Under the pieces are notes generated by a model. The model searched no databases. It saw only the letters and a program-made list of their open reading frames with translations, and was not told the DNA's origin. Positions 3,044-20,249 of a stretch of 34,091 bases of DNA are shown piece after piece (position 1 is the stretch's first letter; each line of letters opens with the position of its first letter). Both the position numbers and the translations under genes were made by a program. The DNA comes from Bacteroidota bacterium (GTDB taxonomy: Bacteria; Bacteroidota; Ignavibacteria; Palsa-1295), in assembly GCA_030706385.1 (NCBI GenBank), contig JAUZOQ010000032.1, forward strand, positions 1 through 34,091, given 5' to 3'.

Positions 3044-3808
3044 TTATTTTACCGTATAGGATGTAAGTACTCTGAAGTCTCCGGATTTTGAGCCTGCAGT
3101 CCCTGCCGCTGGAATCGGAGGTATTGCAGTCTTAGAAACTTCTTTAGCAATATAGCCGATCTTGGGCGAGAAAGATATGTTCCTCTCGTAGGTCAACGTC
3201 GCCGGCGGAGAGATCAAAATCGTATTCGTTGTCGCAGTTATCGTCAGCTTACAGATACTGGTTACTAAGCTATCAGTCGTTCCAATCTTGACTGTTTCAT
3301 CACCGACATAGGATACGGTCGCAACCAGATGTGTCGGCACCTGAAATCCGGATACAGAAATCGTGGTATTGGTGTCAAGCACTGTAGCGCTAGTGTGAGT
3401 GGTGATGGGGAGAACGATCCAGCGATGCAGTACTTCATCACCAACAGCTTGCTCGATTCCAGTCAGTCCGTTGTTCTCAACAAAAACATTCACGTCATTG
3501 CTGCTAGTATAGGTGAAATATGCAGTGTCACCATCGTCGACAACGGTATACACGTTATTTTGTCCACGAACAGTCTTCCCATCATCAATAACGCTGGCGC
3601 TGATAACCAGATCAGTACCGGGTATTTTCGTACCGTTGGAATCCGTCTGATACTTGGAATAGGTATACGTGCTGCCGGTCTTCGGCGTGACGTTATTGGA
3701 CCCCGTCTGTTGCGGACTCGAAGATGAGCTGCAGCCCGAATCGAAGAGACCAAGAGCGATCAGCAGGAAGGCACCAAAAACGGAAGCGAGAAATTTTCGA
3801 TCTGTCAT
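3044..3808 (-). CDS. Lipoprotein, tandem paralogue 2
   Basis: Predicted lipoprotein of 254 aa. The frame extends upstream to a GTG at 3850 that overlaps the preceding stop, but the ATG at 3808 gives a proper signal peptide, MTDRKFLASVFGAFLLIALG, and a lipobox-like LFDSGC followed by a Ser run. The mature part starts near a TGSTYTYSKYQTDSNG segment and ends with IGYIAKEVSKTAIPPIP. It is clearly homologous to the gene upstream (4668-3850), sharing DTA(Y/F)F, (R/Q)WI.LPI, VP....T..(Y/F)VGD and IGYI.KE. I do not recognise a named domain. It probably faces the periplasm or the cell surface and probably shares a transcript with its neighbour. The function is unknown. Confidence 0.8.
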   Translation of the reverse strand: MTDRKFLASVFGAFLLIALGLFDSGCSSSSSPQQTGSNNVTPKTGSTYTYSKYQTDSNGTKIPGTDLVISASVIDDGKTVRGQNNVYTVVDDGDTAYFTYTSSNDVNVFVENNGLTGIEQAVGDEVLHRWIVLPITTHTSATVLDTNTTISVSGFQVPTHLVATVSYVGDETVKIGTTDSLVTSICKLTITATTNTILISPPATLTYERNISFSPKIGYIAKEVSKTAIPPIPAAGTAGSKSGDFRVLTSYTVK

Positions 3809-3849
3809 ATTGTGTAATTTGAAAGTAAAATCAGAACAACAAGTGTGCA

Positions 3850-4668
3850 CTATCGTAACATATACGAGGTCAATGTCTTTATTGTTGCAGTCGTATCAAG
3901 CGGTATTACGTAAACGGGAACAGCCGGCATATTCGTTCTAGTCATTTCCTTACCAATATAGCCTATTCTGGGTACGAACCAAATATCCCTCTGATGGGTC
4001 AGGGTAACCTGCTCATTACCGAAGGAGAGTTTCGCAGTTATTAAGAGAATACAGTGTTTTGACGCTAACGTATCCGGCATGAGCGTATTCCCGTTTGTTG
4101 CGACAATATTCGAATCCCCGACAAAATCGACGGTAGTATGGATATTTGCGGGCACCTGTCCACCTGAAATAGAAAAGCTCGTATTGAGGTCGGGAAGAGA
4201 AACTGTGCCCTTCGAGGCGATCGGAAGTGTGATCCATTGATGAAAAATGGCATTTGCAACTGCCTCAAGGGTTTCATCGACTCTCTGCCCGTTCCGATAA
4301 TTATTCAAGAATCCTGGGTCTTTGAGGTACATGGAGACATCACTGTTCGATTCATACAAGAAAAACGCTGTATCGTGTGCAGTATTGCTTTGATCAATAA
4401 TCGAGTATGAGCTCGATTTCGAAAAAATTGACAGCTTGCCTGTATCAACGAAGGCATTTCCCTGAATTGTTGATATAGGATCAAGATTCCCCGACTGATC
4501 CAGTTGGGAGATAAGGTATGAATAAGCAGAATTCAAGCGTGGGATGCTATCTCCGATGTTCGTATTGGTATTCTGGTTTCCGGGTTCGGTCGTGGAAGTT
4601 TTGCAGGCCGATAAAAGCATTCCGACAAGCAAGACTGCGGTAAGTGTGTGAAAATAACGTCTAAGCAT
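3850..4668 (-). CDS. Lipoprotein, tandem paralogue 1
   Basis: Predicted lipoprotein of 272 aa with a textbook signal: MLRRYFHTLTAVLLVGMLLSAC, lipobox LSAC, then a TSTTEPGNQNTNTN linker. The mature domain starts NSAYSYLISQLDQSGN and ends RIGYIGKEMTRTNMPAVPVYV, parallel to the paralogue that follows it. It is beta-rich and has no motif I can assign. The gene lies 75 bp behind pheS on the same strand and upstream of its paralogue; the two probably arose by tandem duplication inserted between pheS and pheT. Two similar-looking lipoproteins occur at 16669-17319 and 19458-20126, so this belongs to a lineage family of small extracytoplasmic proteins of unknown role. Confidence 0.85.
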   Translation of the reverse strand: MLRRYFHTLTAVLLVGMLLSACKTSTTEPGNQNTNTNIGDSIPRLNSAYSYLISQLDQSGNLDPISTIQGNAFVDTGKLSIFSKSSSYSIIDQSNTAHDTAFFLYESNSDVSMYLKDPGFLNNYRNGQRVDETLEAVANAIFHQWITLPIASKGTVSLPDLNTSFSISGGQVPANIHTTVDFVGDSNIVATNGNTLMPDTLASKHCILLITAKLSFGNEQVTLTHQRDIWFVPRIGYIGKEMTRTNMPAVPVYVIPLDTTATIKTLTSYMLR

Positions 4669-13075: not shown

Positions 13076-14776
13076 TTGAAGCAGATCATTATTCTCTTTG
13101 TCTTGCTACTCGTGATCCTCGAAGCAACTGCCAGTGAGGCATCACCCGGCCAACATACCCTACATAACACCAATGGCGGCAAAAAATATGGCGGTGCCAT
13201 TCATCTCAATGAAAATGAGGAGCCTCGCTCCTTCGACCCTGCCCAGATCAGCGAGAAAGGAAACATCGACATAGCGGAAAATATATATGATCGCCTACTT
13301 GAATACGATGAAAACCTAAATGTAAGACCGAGTCTCGCCAAATCCATGCCCGAGATCTCCCCGGACGGACTGATATATACTTTCCATCTCCGCACTGATG
13401 TCTATTTTCATGATGATCCATGCTTCCCGGGAAGCATCGGTCGAAAGTTCACGGCAAGAGATGTGCTCTATTGCTGGACACGGTCATGTGATCCTCGGAC
13501 GCGTACACTTGCCATGCCATATTTCGAGATAATCCAAGGTGCACAGGAGTATTACGCAGACCCGATATTGCACTCGGAAGGAGTCAAGGGAATACAGACG
13601 CCGGACGATTCCACGTTCGTAGTTACGCTGACTACGCCTTTCTCTCCTTTCATCGACTATTGTGCAACCGTAGGTTTCATTTGTCCGAGGGAAGCAATAG
13701 AGAGGTACGGTGACGACTTTATCCATCATGCCGTTGGAACCGGTCCGTTCAAGCTTGTTGATTATGAGGCAGGTAACTACTGCTTATTACTAAGAAATCA
13801 ACATTATTGGGGCAAGGATCCAGAAGACAACCAATTGCCGTACCTCGACTCCGTTCGATTTACCTTTGTACAGGATAGTCGAATAGAGATGCTCGAATTT
13901 AAAGCAGGGCGTCTTGATCACAAATATCGGATTCCCTCCGGATCATTTGAAAATGTATTCGATAAGAGCAACCGTCTCAAGGATGAATATCGACAATATC
14001 AGATAGGCAGGGTGGCTGCGAATTCAACGCAATTTTACGGTTTCAACTGTGAGATGCCCGGTGTGTCGAACGTTCACTTGCGCCGGGCGATCAGTCTTGC
14101 AATCGATAGAAAAAAAATAGTTGCCGATATCCTGGGGGAACAGGCCTCCGGTCCAGGCGACTATGGCCTAGTCCCGCCCTCTATGTTGCCGAATCGTGCG
14201 ATCAATGGCATGAATTTTAATCCCGCAAAGGCAAGGAAGGAGCTTGGAATCGCGAAAAAAGAATTGAATGGAAAGATACCCGAAATCAAACTTTGTGTTA
14301 ACCAAGGTGGGGGGAGAAATCAGCAAGTTGCGCAGGCCGTGATTTCGATGGTAAAAGACTGTTTGGGGATTGATATTCAAATAGAAATTAGAAGTTGGCC
14401 GGATCTGACCGAATTGATCGATGCGGGCAAGGCTCCATTCTTCAGACTTGGGTGGATATCCGATTATCCTAACCCCCAAAGTTTTCTGGCACTTATCTAT
14501 GGCAACAATATTCCGAGCTCGGGACCTAGTTCGATGAATTTGGTACGCTACCGTAATTCAGTATTCGATAGGTTATATGAAGAGGCTCTACGCGAAACCA
14601 ACCGATCCAAGGCACTCAATTTATGGGCACAATGCGACAGGGTCGCTGTGGAGGATGCCGCAATGGTTATTCTTTACTATGACGAGGACTTCCACTTGTT
14701 GCAGCCCTGGGTTATGGATTTTCCCATCAATTCACAGAATGATAATGCGATGAAACATGTCTGGTTCTCTCAGTAA
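13076..14776 (+). CDS. Oligopeptide-type ABC substrate-binding protein (secreted form)
   Basis: A 566-aa family 5 (OppA/DppA-like) solute-binding protein. The start is a TTG at 13076, the only codon that supplies the signal peptide MKQIIILFVLLLVILEATAS. No Cys follows, so cleavage by signal peptidase I is expected. The mature protein begins with a GGKKYGGAIHLNE motif, then SFDP..I, ENIYDRLLEYDENL.VRPSLAKSMPEIS and FHLRTDVYFHDD. In the C-terminal lobe FRLGWISDYPNPQSFLALIY and YYDEDFHLLQPWV are typical. It is a close paralogue of the next gene. No permease or ATPase genes accompany it. It is divergent from the HxH/CxxC gene, with only 51 bp between the starts. Confidence 0.92.
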   Translation: MKQIIILFVLLLVILEATASEASPGQHTLHNTNGGKKYGGAIHLNENEEPRSFDPAQISEKGNIDIAENIYDRLLEYDENLNVRPSLAKSMPEISPDGLIYTFHLRTDVYFHDDPCFPGSIGRKFTARDVLYCWTRSCDPRTRTLAMPYFEIIQGAQEYYADPILHSEGVKGIQTPDDSTFVVTLTTPFSPFIDYCATVGFICPREAIERYGDDFIHHAVGTGPFKLVDYEAGNYCLLLRNQHYWGKDPEDNQLPYLDSVRFTFVQDSRIEMLEFKAGRLDHKYRIPSGSFENVFDKSNRLKDEYRQYQIGRVAANSTQFYGFNCEMPGVSNVHLRRAISLAIDRKKIVADILGEQASGPGDYGLVPPSMLPNRAINGMNFNPAKARKELGIAKKELNGKIPEIKLCVNQGGGRNQQVAQAVISMVKDCLGIDIQIEIRSWPDLTELIDAGKAPFFRLGWISDYPNPQSFLALIYGNNIPSSGPSSMNLVRYRNSVFDRLYEEALRETNRSKALNLWAQCDRVAVEDAAMVILYYDEDFHLLQPWVMDFPINSQNDNAMKHVWFSQ

Positions 14777-14903: not shown

Positions 14904-16613
14904 ATGAAGAAATTCCTCGGTTTATTGTGTCTCAGCTTCGTATTGCTTTTCATATCTTGTGGGAAGAAGTCAGGATCACGGCATGCTCTTAGGGACGCGA
15001 AAGGCGGCAAGAAGTATGGCGGCGCGATACACCTGAATGAAACCGGTGATCTCCGTTCTCTTGATCCTCCTCAGATCAACGATCAAACAAGTGGTCATAT
15101 CGGTGAGAATATATACGACCGTCTTCTTGAATTCGATAATTCACTCCAACTCCATCCATCCTTAGCTAAGGCACTGCCGGAAATATCATCTGACGGAGTA
15201 ACCTATACTTTTCATCTTCGGACCGACGTCTATTTTCAGGATGATGATTGCTTCCCGGGCGGCAAAGGACGAAAAATGACTGCAAAGGATATTGTCTACT
15301 GCTGGAGCAGAGCATTAGACCCGGCGACCAATACGCTTGCGCTTCCCTATTTCCAGATAATCAAGGGAGCCAAGGAATATTTCGATAGCAAGGCTAAGCT
15401 TGCAGGGGGTGTTGCAGGCCTCCAAGCTCCGGATGATTCGACATTCATCGTGACTCTGAAAGTCCCTTTCTCACCATTCATTAACTACTGTATGGTCGGA
15501 AACGCCTTCATCTACCCACATGAAGCTGTTGAGAAGTATGGAAAGGATTTTACTCACCATGGTGTCGGCACAGGTCCCTTCAGATTTGCTGAGTATAAAG
15601 AGGGAAGATATTGCCTCTTGGTACGCAATGAGCATTATTGGGCGAAAGATGAAGCTGGCAACCAGCTTCCCTATTTGGATACTGTTCGCTTTTCATTTAT
15701 GCAAGATGATAAAGCTGAATTCCAGGAATTCAAAGCTGGGAATCTGGACCATAAATATCGCATACCGAACGAGTTTTTTGCCGACGTTGTAGATGAGAAT
15801 AAGAACCTCAAAGGCGATTATAAGAAGTATCAACTTGGTAAGATCGCAGCGATCGCCACACAGTTTCATGGATTTAATTGTCAGTTCCCTGGCGTATCGA
15901 ATGTGCACCTTCGGCGGGCCATTAGTTTCTGTGTCGACAGAAGAAAAATCGTAAAGTACATTTTGAAGAACCAAGCAGCTGCTCCTGGAGAGCATGGCTT
16001 AGTACCTCCGTCGATGCCGGGATTCCCATTCGACCAAGTGCAGGGCTTTGTTTTTAATCCCGATAGTGCCAGAGCCGAGCTAGAGATCGCGAAGAAAGAA
16101 CTCCACGGTGAGGTGCCGGACCTGACACTCTACGTGAATAAAGGCGGTGGAAGAAACGAAGATGTTGCACAGGCAGTCCAGGCAATGATCAAGGAGAACC
16201 TCGGCATCGACATTCATCTCGAAGTCAAGGAGTGGGCACAGCTTACGCCAATGATCGATGACGGCAAGGCTGCGTATTTCAGGCTCGGATGGATTGCGGA
16301 CTACCCTGATCCGCAAAACTTTCTGAATCTGCTCTATAGTAAGAATATCCCATCCAGTGGACCGAGCTCAATTAATCAGACTCGTTATAAGAATCCGGAA
16401 TTTGACAAGCTGTATGAGATGGCGATCCACGAAATTGATCGTTCGAAGGCCATGCAGCTCTGGGCCCAATGCGATCAGCTAGCAATCCGAGATGCTCCTC
16501 AAGTAATCCTATATTACGATGAGGATTATCATGTCATTCAGCCGTGGGTCAAGGACTTCCCCATCGATGCGCAAGATAATAATCCAATGAAAAGGGTATG
16601 GCTTTCGGAGTAA
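14904..16613 (+). CDS. Oligopeptide-type ABC substrate-binding lipoprotein
   Basis: A 569-aa family 5 solute-binding protein, collinear with its paralogue 127 bp upstream along the whole length. The signal peptide MKKFLGLLCLSFVLLFISC ends in a lipobox, so this copy is membrane-anchored, unlike its neighbour. It shares the GGKKYGGAIHLNE motif after the signal, ENIYDRLLEFDNS, FHLRTDVYFQDDDCFPGG, and the C-terminal GWIADYPDPQNFLNLLYS and YYDEDYHVIQPWV. The substrate is probably a peptide or similar small solute. The permease must be encoded elsewhere if the protein serves an ABC importer. Confidence 0.94.
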   Translation: MKKFLGLLCLSFVLLFISCGKKSGSRHALRDAKGGKKYGGAIHLNETGDLRSLDPPQINDQTSGHIGENIYDRLLEFDNSLQLHPSLAKALPEISSDGVTYTFHLRTDVYFQDDDCFPGGKGRKMTAKDIVYCWSRALDPATNTLALPYFQIIKGAKEYFDSKAKLAGGVAGLQAPDDSTFIVTLKVPFSPFINYCMVGNAFIYPHEAVEKYGKDFTHHGVGTGPFRFAEYKEGRYCLLVRNEHYWAKDEAGNQLPYLDTVRFSFMQDDKAEFQEFKAGNLDHKYRIPNEFFADVVDENKNLKGDYKKYQLGKIAAIATQFHGFNCQFPGVSNVHLRRAISFCVDRRKIVKYILKNQAAAPGEHGLVPPSMPGFPFDQVQGFVFNPDSARAELEIAKKELHGEVPDLTLYVNKGGGRNEDVAQAVQAMIKENLGIDIHLEVKEWAQLTPMIDDGKAAYFRLGWIADYPDPQNFLNLLYSKNIPSSGPSSINQTRYKNPEFDKLYEMAIHEIDRSKAMQLWAQCDQLAIRDAPQVILYYDEDYHVIQPWVKDFPIDAQDNNPMKRVWLSE

Positions 16614-16668: not shown

Positions 16669-17319
16669 CTATTTCTGGCCGACTAGTCGCATCTCTTCGC
16701 CAAAATCGGAGTCTGGCTGTTTTGAAGTACTATAAATGAGCCCCACTCCGCGGGCAAACCACTTTACCGTAGAGTCACCGGATTGCGAGGTGTAGACGAC
16801 TTCTGCGACATCGTCGTAGGTCTTGCCATCAGGCATTTTCATTTGCACACCGCGACGGGTGACCTCTGCAGTGTAGCGAGACTGGATGTAGTAGCTGCCG
16901 TTCGAGTTATTGAATTTCCATTGTTGCCCTACCATGAGAGGCGCCTTCAGATCCAACCAGTACTTCTCGTTATTCCCGCATGATACCTTTCCCAGCGTAT
17001 ACGCTTCGCTATCATTCATAGCGTAATAAAAGTTATTCAGGTAGAGATTCATCTTTGTCATGTCAGCCGAATAGCATGCCTGATTTCCCATCATCAAGCC
17101 GGAAGCATCGTTACCTTGCATCGTCATCCAGATCGTATCTGCGCCTGTGGAATTCTTACGGCAGTATGCGTAAGAGGTGCCAATACTTTTTAGCGGCAAG
17201 TAATACTCCTCAATATTCAGAACAGGCTTCTGTTGAGACGGAGCGGAATCGACCAGAGCATTGCAACCAACTAAGGCACTTGCAACGATCAAAATAGCAG
17301 AACCGATAAAGAGTCTCAT
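16669..17319 (-). CDS. Lipoprotein downstream of the anti-sigma gene
   Basis: A 216-aa lipoprotein: MRLFIGSAILIVASALVGC with lipobox ALVGC, then a beta-rich domain starting YYLPLKSIGTSYAYCRKN and ending VKWFARGVGLIYSTSKQ. The ATG has a good Shine-Dalgarno, AAGGAG, 8 nt upstream. It starts 16 bp after the anti-sigma stop, so it is the third gene of the sigma/anti-sigma operon and a likely partner or target of that system. The layout (an S-x-Y-x-Y opening and a GVGL close) resembles the other lipoproteins in the window. The function is unknown. Confidence 0.85.
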   Translation of the reverse strand: MRLFIGSAILIVASALVGCNALVDSAPSQQKPVLNIEEYYLPLKSIGTSYAYCRKNSTGADTIWMTMQGNDASGLMMGNQACYSADMTKMNLYLNNFYYAMNDSEAYTLGKVSCGNNEKYWLDLKAPLMVGQQWKFNNSNGSYYIQSRYTAEVTRRGVQMKMPDGKTYDDVAEVVYTSQSGDSTVKWFARGVGLIYSTSKQPDSDFGEEMRLVGQK

Positions 17320-17335: not shown

Positions 17336-18586
17336 TTAAAATCGATAAATAAGACCGTAATGCAATCTGCCGTTAAGCGTGTTCCGAATATCGGCAGCAT
17401 CGATCATCACAGGTTTCGAACTCGCATTTTCCGCAGCAAGGACAGCGCTTGCCGAAAGAGCATTTGAATGTACACGAGAGAGAGCAAATGCAGCACCGAA
17501 CGAAAGACTCTCAGAAAATGGGATTCGAACACCCGCTTCTGCATCGAGTGTGTATCCGTTCGGTATTAATCCACCACCAAGAGAGAATTCGAGAAGCAAG
17601 TTTCCTGCAAAAAATAGAGGCTCCAGATGGGAGACGAATATTTCCTCGCTAAAACTGCGCTTGGTTTCAATACTTCGTGAGATCAATTCTGTACCATTAT
17701 CATTGCTACGCTTCACATCTCCAAGCTGCTGGTATAATCCGGAACCAAGCCTGAATCCGATCAAATTATTCTCGGAGATATGATAGGCAAGGCTTATGCG
17801 CTGATCAGCAAATGGCTTGATTGGAGATGCATCTGCAGGATAGGTAAATCCGCTGGAAGTCTGTAGGCTCCCTTCAAAGAGAGAACGTTGTTCGGGCAGA
17901 CCATCATGATGATCGAACGGTGAGTGGCGTTCCGCACCAATATCCGAATGCACATCTTCGATCTGCAGATCTACAGGTTGTATGTCGATCAAAGCCGAAT
18001 GCTGTCCGCTTGATGAGCCGTCGACGAAGGCATCCGTGTTCAACTCATTGTGCTCGGCAGCCGGACTCGTCTGCATAACGGGAATTCCCATCGTCCGCCG
18101 AGAAATCGAAACTGCATGGGAGGTATTACTTGAAGTCGAATTCCGTAGCGCCAAAGCCGGCACTTCAGAGCTTGCGCGGTCTGACAATTGCGAACTCGGC
18201 AACGCTCTTCGAGGAAGCACCTCAGCTGCCTCCTGTGAACCTGCGGAAATAAATTTGGGTACAAAGTAGCCCAATGCGCCAGAGCTTAGGATGAGGGCTA
18301 GGGCGGCCAGAACTGCAGTACGTTTTGAAAAGACAAGTATTCCCTTTTGCTTGACCTGAGTAGAGGCAAGGGATTCTATCCTGGAGAAAAGCGACGACTC
18401 GACCTCCGGACTCACCATTACCGATCTAGTTGCATCCTGAGCAAGATCGCGCAGCATCTCATGCTCTCGAAAGAGCAGGCGTATCTCCGGAGAAACACTC
18501 GTCAAATGCAACAGCTCTGCGCTATCGGCATCGGAGAGCTCTCCGTCAAAGTAGGCAATGATCTTATTTTCTAACTCTTTGCTCAT
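17336..18586 (-). CDS. Anti-sigma factor with C-terminal outer-membrane-barrel-like domain
   Basis: A 416-aa protein with a striking layout. Residues 1-75 are an anti-sigma-type helical domain (ELENKIIAYFDGELSDADSAELLHL...REHEMLRDLA) without the zinc-binding HxxxCxxC. A single membrane segment spans 88-110, and a polar Ser/Ala-rich, His-containing linker spans about 111-260. The last ~155 residues are alternating amphipathic strands (RISLAYHIS, NLIGFRLGSGLYQQL, NLLLEFSLGGGL, YTLDAEAGVRIPF, LSFGAAFALSRVH) ending in the aromatic C-terminus YGLIYRF typical of outer-membrane barrels. That length suits an eight-stranded barrel. The ATG overlaps the ECF sigma stop by 4 bp. It fits a dual-membrane-spanning anti-sigma factor that holds the sigma factor in the cytoplasm while sensing the outer membrane. 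Confidence 0.85.
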   Translation of the reverse strand: MSKELENKIIAYFDGELSDADSAELLHLTSVSPEIRLLFREHEMLRDLAQDATRSVMVSPEVESSLFSRIESLASTQVKQKGILVFSKRTAVLAALALILSSGALGYFVPKFISAGSQEAAEVLPRRALPSSQLSDRASSEVPALALRNSTSSNTSHAVSISRRTMGIPVMQTSPAAEHNELNTDAFVDGSSSGQHSALIDIQPVDLQIEDVHSDIGAERHSPFDHHDGLPEQRSLFEGSLQTSSGFTYPADASPIKPFADQRISLAYHISENNLIGFRLGSGLYQQLGDVKRSNDNGTELISRSIETKRSFSEEIFVSHLEPLFFAGNLLLEFSLGGGLIPNGYTLDAEAGVRIPFSESLSFGAAFALSRVHSNALSASAVLAAENASSKPVMIDAADIRNTLNGRLHYGLIYRF

Positions 18587-19347
18587 GCAATCAGTACAGT
18601 CTTTTTACCCTCATGTTGCACACTTTCAACTGTTCCATCTATTTCTGGTACGGGTTTCGCAGGGGATTTCTCTTCGATTGTCTCCAAGCGGTGCTTGAAG
18701 TGCGGAGCTAAAATTTCGCGAAGCATTTTCTTCGCCCTCAAAACACGTACCTTAACATTTACACTCGTCGTTCCCGTGAGTTCCGCAACTTCCTCACAAG
18801 TAAATCCTTCGATTTCGCGGAGCATAAAAGCGTCTCGATAGATCGGGGCGATCTTGTTGAACGCATGCTGAAAGATCTCTTCCGGATACTCCTGGTCAAT
18901 TCCTTCAACGGAAAGTTCTCTGCGATGAGAATATCCTATCGGTTCTCTATGTTCATCATCAAGATGAACAAATTCCGGAGTAAAGACGGATTCGCGAGTC
19001 ATATTCAAGCACACCGATCTCGCAATCAATAAAAGCCAGCTTTTTAACGCCTTCGCCTCCCGAAGCTGATCACGCCGCTGATAGACTCGAATAAACACTT
19101 CCTGAAACGCATCTTCGGCAAGAGACTTATTCCCCATTACATACAGACAGTATGAGAAGATGCGCTCCCTATATTTATTATAGACGTATTTAAACGCCCC
19201 TACATCGCCGGCAATAAATGCCTCGATGATCTTACTTTCGGAAAGGTCCGTATCGGACGCTGTCCCGATCTCTGAATCGCGATATGGTGGTTTCTTATTC
19301 TCTGGCAAGATGCTCCTGCAGGGTATTTGCCTAACCTTTAAAGACAC
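18583..19347 (-). CDS. ECF-type RNA polymerase sigma factor
   Basis: A 254-aa sigma-70 family, extracytoplasmic-function regulator. Region 2 lies at about 47-113 (DVGAFKYVYNKYRERIFSYCLYVMGNKSLAEDAFQEVFIRVYQ) and region 4 at about 157-211 (APIYRDAFMLREIEGFTCEEVAELTGTTSVNVKVRVLRAKKMLREIL); region 3 is absent. A ~45-residue charged C-terminal extension is longer than usual. The start is uncertain: the GTG at 19347 has AAGG 7 nt upstream, while a TTG at codon 14 has AGGAG 4 nt upstream. It is translationally coupled to the anti-sigma gene (ATGA overlap), which should sequester it until an envelope signal releases it. Confidence 0.95.
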   Translation of the reverse strand: MSLKVRQIPCRSILPENKKPPYRDSEIGTASDTDLSESKIIEAFIAGDVGAFKYVYNKYRERIFSYCLYVMGNKSLAEDAFQEVFIRVYQRRDQLREAKALKSWLLLIARSVCLNMTRESVFTPEFVHLDDEHREPIGYSHRRELSVEGIDQEYPEEIFQHAFNKIAPIYRDAFMLREIEGFTCEEVAELTGTTSVNVKVRVLRAKKMLREILAPHFKHRLETIEEKSPAKPVPEIDGTVESVQHEGKKTVLIA

Positions 19348-19457
19348 ATATTCACCTTCAATTGTTACAAAATGGAGATCGATTTGTCTCTTTCAGGCGA
19401 GGTTTATCCACAAGCCATTAAAATATAAGCAATTAAAGGAAGTTACCGCCCAAGGGA

Positions 19458-20126
19458 CTACTTCAGAGAAAAACTCTGTAATTCGAACGTACCATCGAGA
19501 TAGTGCGCCGAAGACGCATATTGATAGTCTCTACCGAGAACCAGACCAACACCGTCGGCGTAGAACTTGTCGGAGACAGAGTTCGTATCCACAATATTTT
19601 GAGGGTAAATATACTCGTTCACAATCCGAAATTGGACACAGGAAAAATTGCCTGCCGGCGTTGAAATTGGCTGGCCGGTCTTAACTAACGTTGCAGTTTC
19701 TTTGACTCGCAATGCCCCACCTATGCTTGAATCAAACAGTGTTAGGCTTTCTCCAACGTTCATAGGATATCTAAGAACCATGTGCGGCGTCGACGTACTG
19801 TCGTTGGGATCGAAACTATAGAGATCAGAATCGACCCAGTATACGAGTGCATATCCCGGAACATTAAGAATCCCATAGTGATAGGCATGGTGCCCCTGAT
19901 AGGTTTCTTCCCCACTGATGAGAACGGTTCCGGTCTCATCCTGCACACTTGTACCATTTACATCGAAAGTTTGCTGACGGTAGACACAGCTATCTCCAAC
20001 TTTCATTGGATAGATGTTGCTGAGGTTTCCGTTCTGGTCGGAAGAGGGCGCAGCAGGATTACTTTTGCAGCCTGGGAAGAGAGCAAAACCAAGGATAAGA
20101 AGGAGCGCGAAGGATTGAGGTTTCAT
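19458..20126 (-). CDS. Lipoprotein upstream of the ECF sigma gene
   Basis: A 222-aa lipoprotein. The ATG at 20126 is preferred over the upstream TTG at 20165 because it gives MKPQSFALLLILGFALFPGC, a signal peptide with lipobox, followed by KSNPAAPSSDQ. The mature domain opens IYPMKVGDSCVYRQQTFDVNG, has PAGNFSCVQFRIVNEY in the second half, and closes with YADGVGLVLGRDYQY. This resembles beta-rich lipoproteins seen in many FCB genomes without known function. It lies about 110 bp upstream of the sigma factor on the same strand, with no clear terminator between, so it may belong to the same regulon. Confidence 0.82.
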   Translation of the reverse strand: MKPQSFALLLILGFALFPGCKSNPAAPSSDQNGNLSNIYPMKVGDSCVYRQQTFDVNGTSVQDETGTVLISGEETYQGHHAYHYGILNVPGYALVYWVDSDLYSFDPNDSTSTPHMVLRYPMNVGESLTLFDSSIGGALRVKETATLVKTGQPISTPAGNFSCVQFRIVNEYIYPQNIVDTNSVSDKFYADGVGLVLGRDYQYASSAHYLDGTFELQSFSLK

Positions 20127-20249
20127 GAACAGGATATTCAAATATTGATCAATAAATTGTGACAATGCGGATAATGAATTAGTTCAGGGCACGATATTCG
20201 GTCGAGACCCTGCAAACTCCGGTGGATCGATCAATCTACGGCAGCCTCG

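Follow-up and report, generated by a model that had tools for sequence, protein, structure and literature searches.

Whether a single polypeptide can link the outer membrane to a cytoplasmic sigma factor in Bacteroidota outside the gut Bacteroides is the question raised by a sigma/anti-sigma gene pair from a Bacteroidota bacterium (Ignavibacteria; Palsa-1295; assembly GCA_030706385.1). The window, i.e., the whole stretch of DNA analysed, comprises 34,091 nt of contig JAUZOQ010000032.1 (forward strand). A preliminary description had reported an ECF sigma factor coupled to an anti-sigma factor that seems to reach both membranes. The observation is confirmed and its reading is supported: both open reading frames lie where they had been placed, and the locus very probably encodes a dual-membrane-spanning sigma/anti-sigma switch with the release mechanism and regulon proposed below.

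On the minus strand of the window, the ECF sigma gene is followed by the anti-sigma gene and a lipoprotein gene, referred to here as the third gene (Table 1). The sigma factor contains regions 2 and 4 (Pfam Sigma70_r2, 3.4e-13; Sigma70_r4_2, 8.8e-12), and its closest NCBIfam entries are general ECF families and sigma_PG0214, the latter under the cut-off. The sigma and anti-sigma reading frames share a 4-bp ATGA overlap, and the third gene starts 16 bp downstream of the anti-sigma gene. Translation of the sigma gene likely begins at a TTG codon, giving a protein of 241 aa, rather than at the GTG of the ORF list, since this GTG lies inside the conserved −10 element; the ortholog L033 and an AGGAG motif point to the same start. 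Upstream of the sigma gene, TTGTAAC-N15/16-GTGTC is found in 10/10 orthologs. The best spaced motif pair was common to 8/10 ortholog upstream regions, with at most two in shuffled sequences, and the sigma operon promoter is the sole match to the pattern in the window (shuffle mean 0.00). Across the 13 genomes of the family the pattern occurs 48 times, compared with 13 for the reversed control, and a stricter form occurs 24 times versus 5 in the control.

Table 1. Features of the sigma/anti-sigma locus and its surroundings (window coordinates).
Feature	Position	Strand	Basis
-35 element TTGTAAC, sigma operon promoter	19364..19370	(-)	conserved in ten orthologs
-10 element GTGTC, sigma operon promoter	19343..19347	(-)	includes the GTG taken as start in the ORF list
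ECF sigma gene	18583..19308	(-)	likely start TTG 19308, AGGAG at 19313-19317; ORF list 18583-19347
Anti-sigma factor, 416 aa: TM helix, tether, predicted C-terminal barrel	17336..18586	(-)	orthologs, model, Foldseek
Probable anti-sigma domain of N-terminal helices, residues ~3-81, cysteine-free	18343..18580	(-)	helices 3-74 modelled; weak zf-HC2 match
Predicted inner-membrane helix, residues 88-110	18257..18325	(-)	Kyte-Doolittle maximum 2.11 at 91-109; modelled helix 88-105
Predicted disordered periplasmic tether, residues 111-236	17879..18256	(-)	pLDDT <50 for 100-233
Predicted outer-membrane barrel of eight strands ending in YRF, residues 237-416	17339..17878	(-)	model, Foldseek; Y414/F416
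Third gene, lipoprotein downstream of the anti-sigma factor; lipid-bearing Cys19	16669..17319	(-)	adjacent in ten orthologs
Neighbouring lipoprotein, distantly similar to third gene	19458..20165	(-)	weak PF21347 match; third-gene HMM match

The sigma factor would transcribe from promoters of the form TTGTAAC-N16-GTGTC. Three such N16 sites are present in the source genome, one before the sigma operon and two before lipoprotein paralogs bearing an HH[ML] motif, and members of this lipoprotein family in G001, G002 and G006 are also preceded by an N16 site. The family behind the N16 promoter (L203, L202, L205, L197, L186) carries HHM and GHxHxxG motifs and is preceded by this promoter in four genomes; it is possibly copper monooxygenase-like, the top Pfam match, Cu2_monoox_C, being insignificant (0.058). 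In several genomes the N15 form (L174, L194, L208 and others) lies ahead of another ECF sigma gene; it also stands before genes for secreted proteins. Assigning all TTGTAAC-N15/17-GTGTC sites to this sigma factor was rejected, since N15 sites often lie before such genes and are therefore probably part of the regulon of a paralogous sigma factor.

Of the 13 genomes in the family, 10 carry the anti-sigma gene at full length, and in one it is broken up by contig ends. The ten orthologs share 29-66% identity with the window copy, with a variable tether and conserved ends, and the order of sigma, anti-sigma and lipoprotein genes is kept. As had been claimed, the setting lies outside the gut Bacteroides: related records are Kapaibacterium, Ignavibacteriae and Bacteroidetes MAGs, and scans of contigs matched Kapabacteria-type records only (NCBI places Kapaibacterium in the Bacteroidota, class Eximiradiia). 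In a class-wide survey, an ECF sigma gene lies directly before the anti-sigma gene in 88 of 91 full-length relatives, and the next co-directional gene encodes a lipobox at 49 of 82 loci, compared with 20 of 299 background ORFs. The survey p-values (7e-24 and 4e-37) are to be read as strong but not exact, since the loci are related to each other and the values overstate the evidence. Sigma/anti-sigma modules with a predicted barrel tail, usually with a small lipoprotein, are widespread in Kapabacteria, a finding that is new here. A single-protein scan of the contig collection gave no match; the relatives were found by an alignment-based search. Two queries of the plasmid collection for Bacteroidia relatives gave no match, and a search of the phylum outside the class yielded nothing but shorter relatives of the anti-sigma factor, of which those inspected had no barrel-like ends. 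Seven of the out-of-class relatives of the anti-sigma domain (L068, L070, L074, L081, L083, L084, L089) are about 240 aa long with a conserved DDGFGNKNAV end; given this length and end, these proteins seem to carry another kind of sensor domain.

The third gene encodes a single lipoprotein family in 10/10 orthologs. An iterative HMM of this family recovers 33/82 downstream slots, its other matches being confined to three lipoprotein genes of the window, and Cys19, L124, W134, A151 and G193 are invariant among 28 members. Sequence searches of Pfam, NCBIfam and PDB gave no match for the third gene, and a relationship to DUF4943 or NigD is unsupported, as the family members match neither. An AlphaFold2 model of the protein (pTM 0.66, mean pLDDT 65) yielded weak Foldseek matches to a Parabacteroides lipoprotein (4fvs, 9e-5), a YmcC-like protein of B. 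fragilis (3fzx, 2.7e-3; also the fourth profile match, E 0.33) and RseB (2v43, 3e-3), these three with TM-scores of 0.3-0.4, as well as LolB and MucB; over all of them TM-scores are mostly 0.2-0.4. On the basis of this model, a LolA/LolB/RseB-type fold may be regarded as a lead only.

The pair had been described as bundled with lipoprotein genes. This applies to the third gene, which is a conserved partner, but not to the neighbouring lipoprotein gene on the other side of the pair: at the corresponding position of the ortholog contig, in the nearest relative, a homologue of the latter was not found, and it was set aside as a part of the system because its position is not conserved. The iterated third-gene HMM recovered two tandem lipoprotein genes at 3044-4668 of the window. 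At some loci (L045, L060, L097 and others), third-slot lipoproteins of 500-630 aa show an apparent repeat or propeller insertion within the family domain. At two others (L130:2990-4213, L131:1924-3147), a serpin-like lipoprotein gene directly follows a barrel-type anti-sigma gene (PF00079, 3e-114 for one A11 member), placing a protease inhibitor beside a switch that is probably run by proteolysis. Furthermore, two adjacent paralogs in the window (13076-14776 and 14904-16613) resemble peptide-binding proteins of ABC transporters, and 14904-16613 keeps its place beside the operon in three relatives.

The co-encoded lipoprotein most likely either acts as a modulator of the switch or is the first product that the switch turns on. 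That it is an effector only, like the NigD lipoproteins of Reo and Dma1, and takes no part in sensing has slightly less than an even chance of being correct. The gene sits directly behind the anti-sigma gene in the sigma factor's own operon and is therefore probably induced together with the switch, yet the close tie of its family to this gene slot could equally mark a co-regulator. Likewise, known regulons of the Dma and Reo kind are rich in lipoproteins (PMC13114119, PMC13088901) and the same promoter precedes other lipoprotein genes in the source genome, while the weak fold similarity to RseB, an anti-sigma partner, could equally point to co-regulation.

The anti-sigma protein matches no Pfam, NCBIfam or PDB sequence family at the usual cut-offs. 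The N-terminal helices that had been described as an anti-sigma-type domain are present in the model and likely form such a domain, although it scores weakly: zf-HC2 matches residues 4-25 with E 0.15 (8.5e-4 in the relative L050). A DGxL...SVSPE motif in this part is strongly conserved, and several paralogs of the N-terminal part exist in the source genome. The zinc motif is absent, as reported earlier, since the protein has no cysteine at all. The single inner-membrane helix is predicted as described. The linker, put at about 150 aa, is indeed predicted to be disordered but is closer to 126 aa, and the C-terminal domain, put at about 155 aa, does consist of strands but is closer to 180 aa.

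From this layout and from precedent we infer how the switch would operate. The N-terminal helices would sequester the ECF sigma factor in the cytoplasm, the single helix would anchor the protein in the inner membrane, and the disordered tether would span the periplasm to an eight-stranded barrel in the outer membrane. If the outer membrane is disturbed or the barrel fails to assemble properly, the signal would then pass down the same polypeptide and free the sigma factor, most likely via regulated proteolysis of the tether and transmembrane segment. Free sigma factor would transcribe its own operon and a few genes for envelope lipoproteins from TTGTAAC-N16-GTGTC. It is improbable that the protein, while possessing an outer-membrane barrel, is instead cut constitutively into a plain outer-membrane protein and a conventional inner-membrane anti-sigma factor. 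The 126-residue tether is an obvious protease target, but its estimated length is rarely below about 95 residues across 88 relatives, which fits the need to cross the periplasm, and the domains are fused in every full-length ortholog. Homologs of the site-2 protease (M50) and of HtrA-type proteases are encoded in the source genome, which would suit constitutive cutting as well; they occur likewise in all 14 control genomes and, being nearly universal, prove little. Moreover, published work on Dma and Reo takes the full-length protein to be the switch (PMC13088901, PMC13114119).

The C-terminal domain is predicted to sit in the outer membrane. An AlphaFold2 model based on 7 sequences is of moderate confidence (mean pLDDT 59, pTM 0.42), with pLDDT of 56 to 90 in 10-residue blocks from residue 241 onward, and contains eight strands (237-249, 263-269, 274-296, 299-323, 331-341, 344-356, 361-374, 403-415). 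For residues 260-416, a soluble fold had been named beforehand as the outcome that would count against the reading; the model shows these strands, and the top Foldseek PDB matches are instead membrane barrels (FadL, E 1e-6; NspA, 6.7e-5; Ail, OmpA and OmpX), together with a designed transmembrane barrel (TM 0.75 on target). The strand pattern is stronger than chance would give, being reached by 18 of 2000 within-strand shuffles. The YGLIYRF end had been read as that of a barrel, in keeping with an invariant Y-R/K-F in 10/10 orthologs (Y414, F416), and OMP-like C-termini are found in 59/91 full-length relatives versus 18/410 background ORFs. It is highly improbable that the domain is instead a soluble beta domain in the periplasm, in which case the protein would be an ordinary anti-sigma factor that crosses one membrane and bears a large periplasmic sensor. 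Against this stand the modelled strands, the barrel matches (the 50 Foldseek matches listed contain no periplasmic beta-sandwich) and these C-termini, even though the domain matches no Pfam or PDB sequence family, the model is of moderate confidence and the amphipathic alternation is clear in some strands but not all.

The closest known counterparts are Dma1 and Dma2, which are described with Das1 and Das2 in Bacteroides thetaiotaomicron (PMC13088901; PNAS 2024 e2321910121 as cited there). Dma comprises an N-terminal anti-sigma domain, a TM helix, a disordered tether and a C-terminal barrel (PMC13088901); set against this published description, the predicted architecture here is the same, in part order as in the adjacent ECF sigma gene, which bears out the likeness drawn previously. 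As at the present locus, Dma2 belongs to a three-gene operon, which it regulates itself: loss of Dma2 frees Das2 and raises expression of Dma2's own operon (PMC13088901). The host here is of a different Bacteroidota class (Kapabacteria), and the third gene represents an undescribed lipoprotein family unmatched to the DUF4943 protein BT_1557. EcfO-Reo of B. fragilis and Phocaeicola vulgatus likewise pairs a sigma factor with an anti-sigma factor reaching from cytoplasm to outer membrane; its regulon includes surface lipoproteins, and envelope stress strongly raises expression of the sigma gene. In P. vulgatus, the toxins BcpT and Bd-A induce Reo, and bacteroidetocin A inhibits BamA (PMC9308784, PMC13114119). 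The regulon lipoproteins are of the NigD type there, whereas here they would comprise the HHM-containing family and the third-gene family. Judging from the predicted structure, the locus likely works like a Dma or Reo switch and is likely to be a formal member of that kind. A connection with outer-membrane vesicle formation, which the preliminary description mentioned for the Dma class, would be no more than a possibility here.

In Escherichia coli, the RpoE-RseA-RseB system also combines an ECF sigma factor, an inner-membrane anti-sigma factor and a third envelope protein, and senses the state of the outer membrane. RseA, however, lacks a barrel and the periplasmic RseB is not lipidated, and the signal comes from separate misassembled porins via DegS. 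The third envelope proteins of the two systems may be related in fold, as the weak Foldseek match to RseB hints. It is conceivable, though doubtful, that the Kapabacteria loci are parallel three-part modules of outer-membrane surveillance in which the RseB/LolB-like lipoprotein acts as a lipid- or LPS-sensing co-regulator shielding the tether from cleavage. Were this true, a failure of the barrel to assemble would be signalled in cis by its own C-terminus, and one polypeptide would perform the jobs split in E. coli among porin tails, RseA and RseB. In FecA/FecR/FecI, an outer-membrane barrel also signals to a cytoplasmic ECF sigma factor; the TonB-dependent transporter and the anti-sigma factor are separate proteins there, whereas barrel and anti-sigma factor are joined in one protein here. 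The many diverged sequences provide material for finding the essential parts of the switch, and the conserved promoter and lipoprotein partner bear on the signal of the barrel and the release of the sigma factor. Taken with the Dma and Reo systems, the present loci indicate that signalling across two membranes by one polypeptide extends well beyond gut Bacteroides: in a distant class it is widespread, with several copies per genome.
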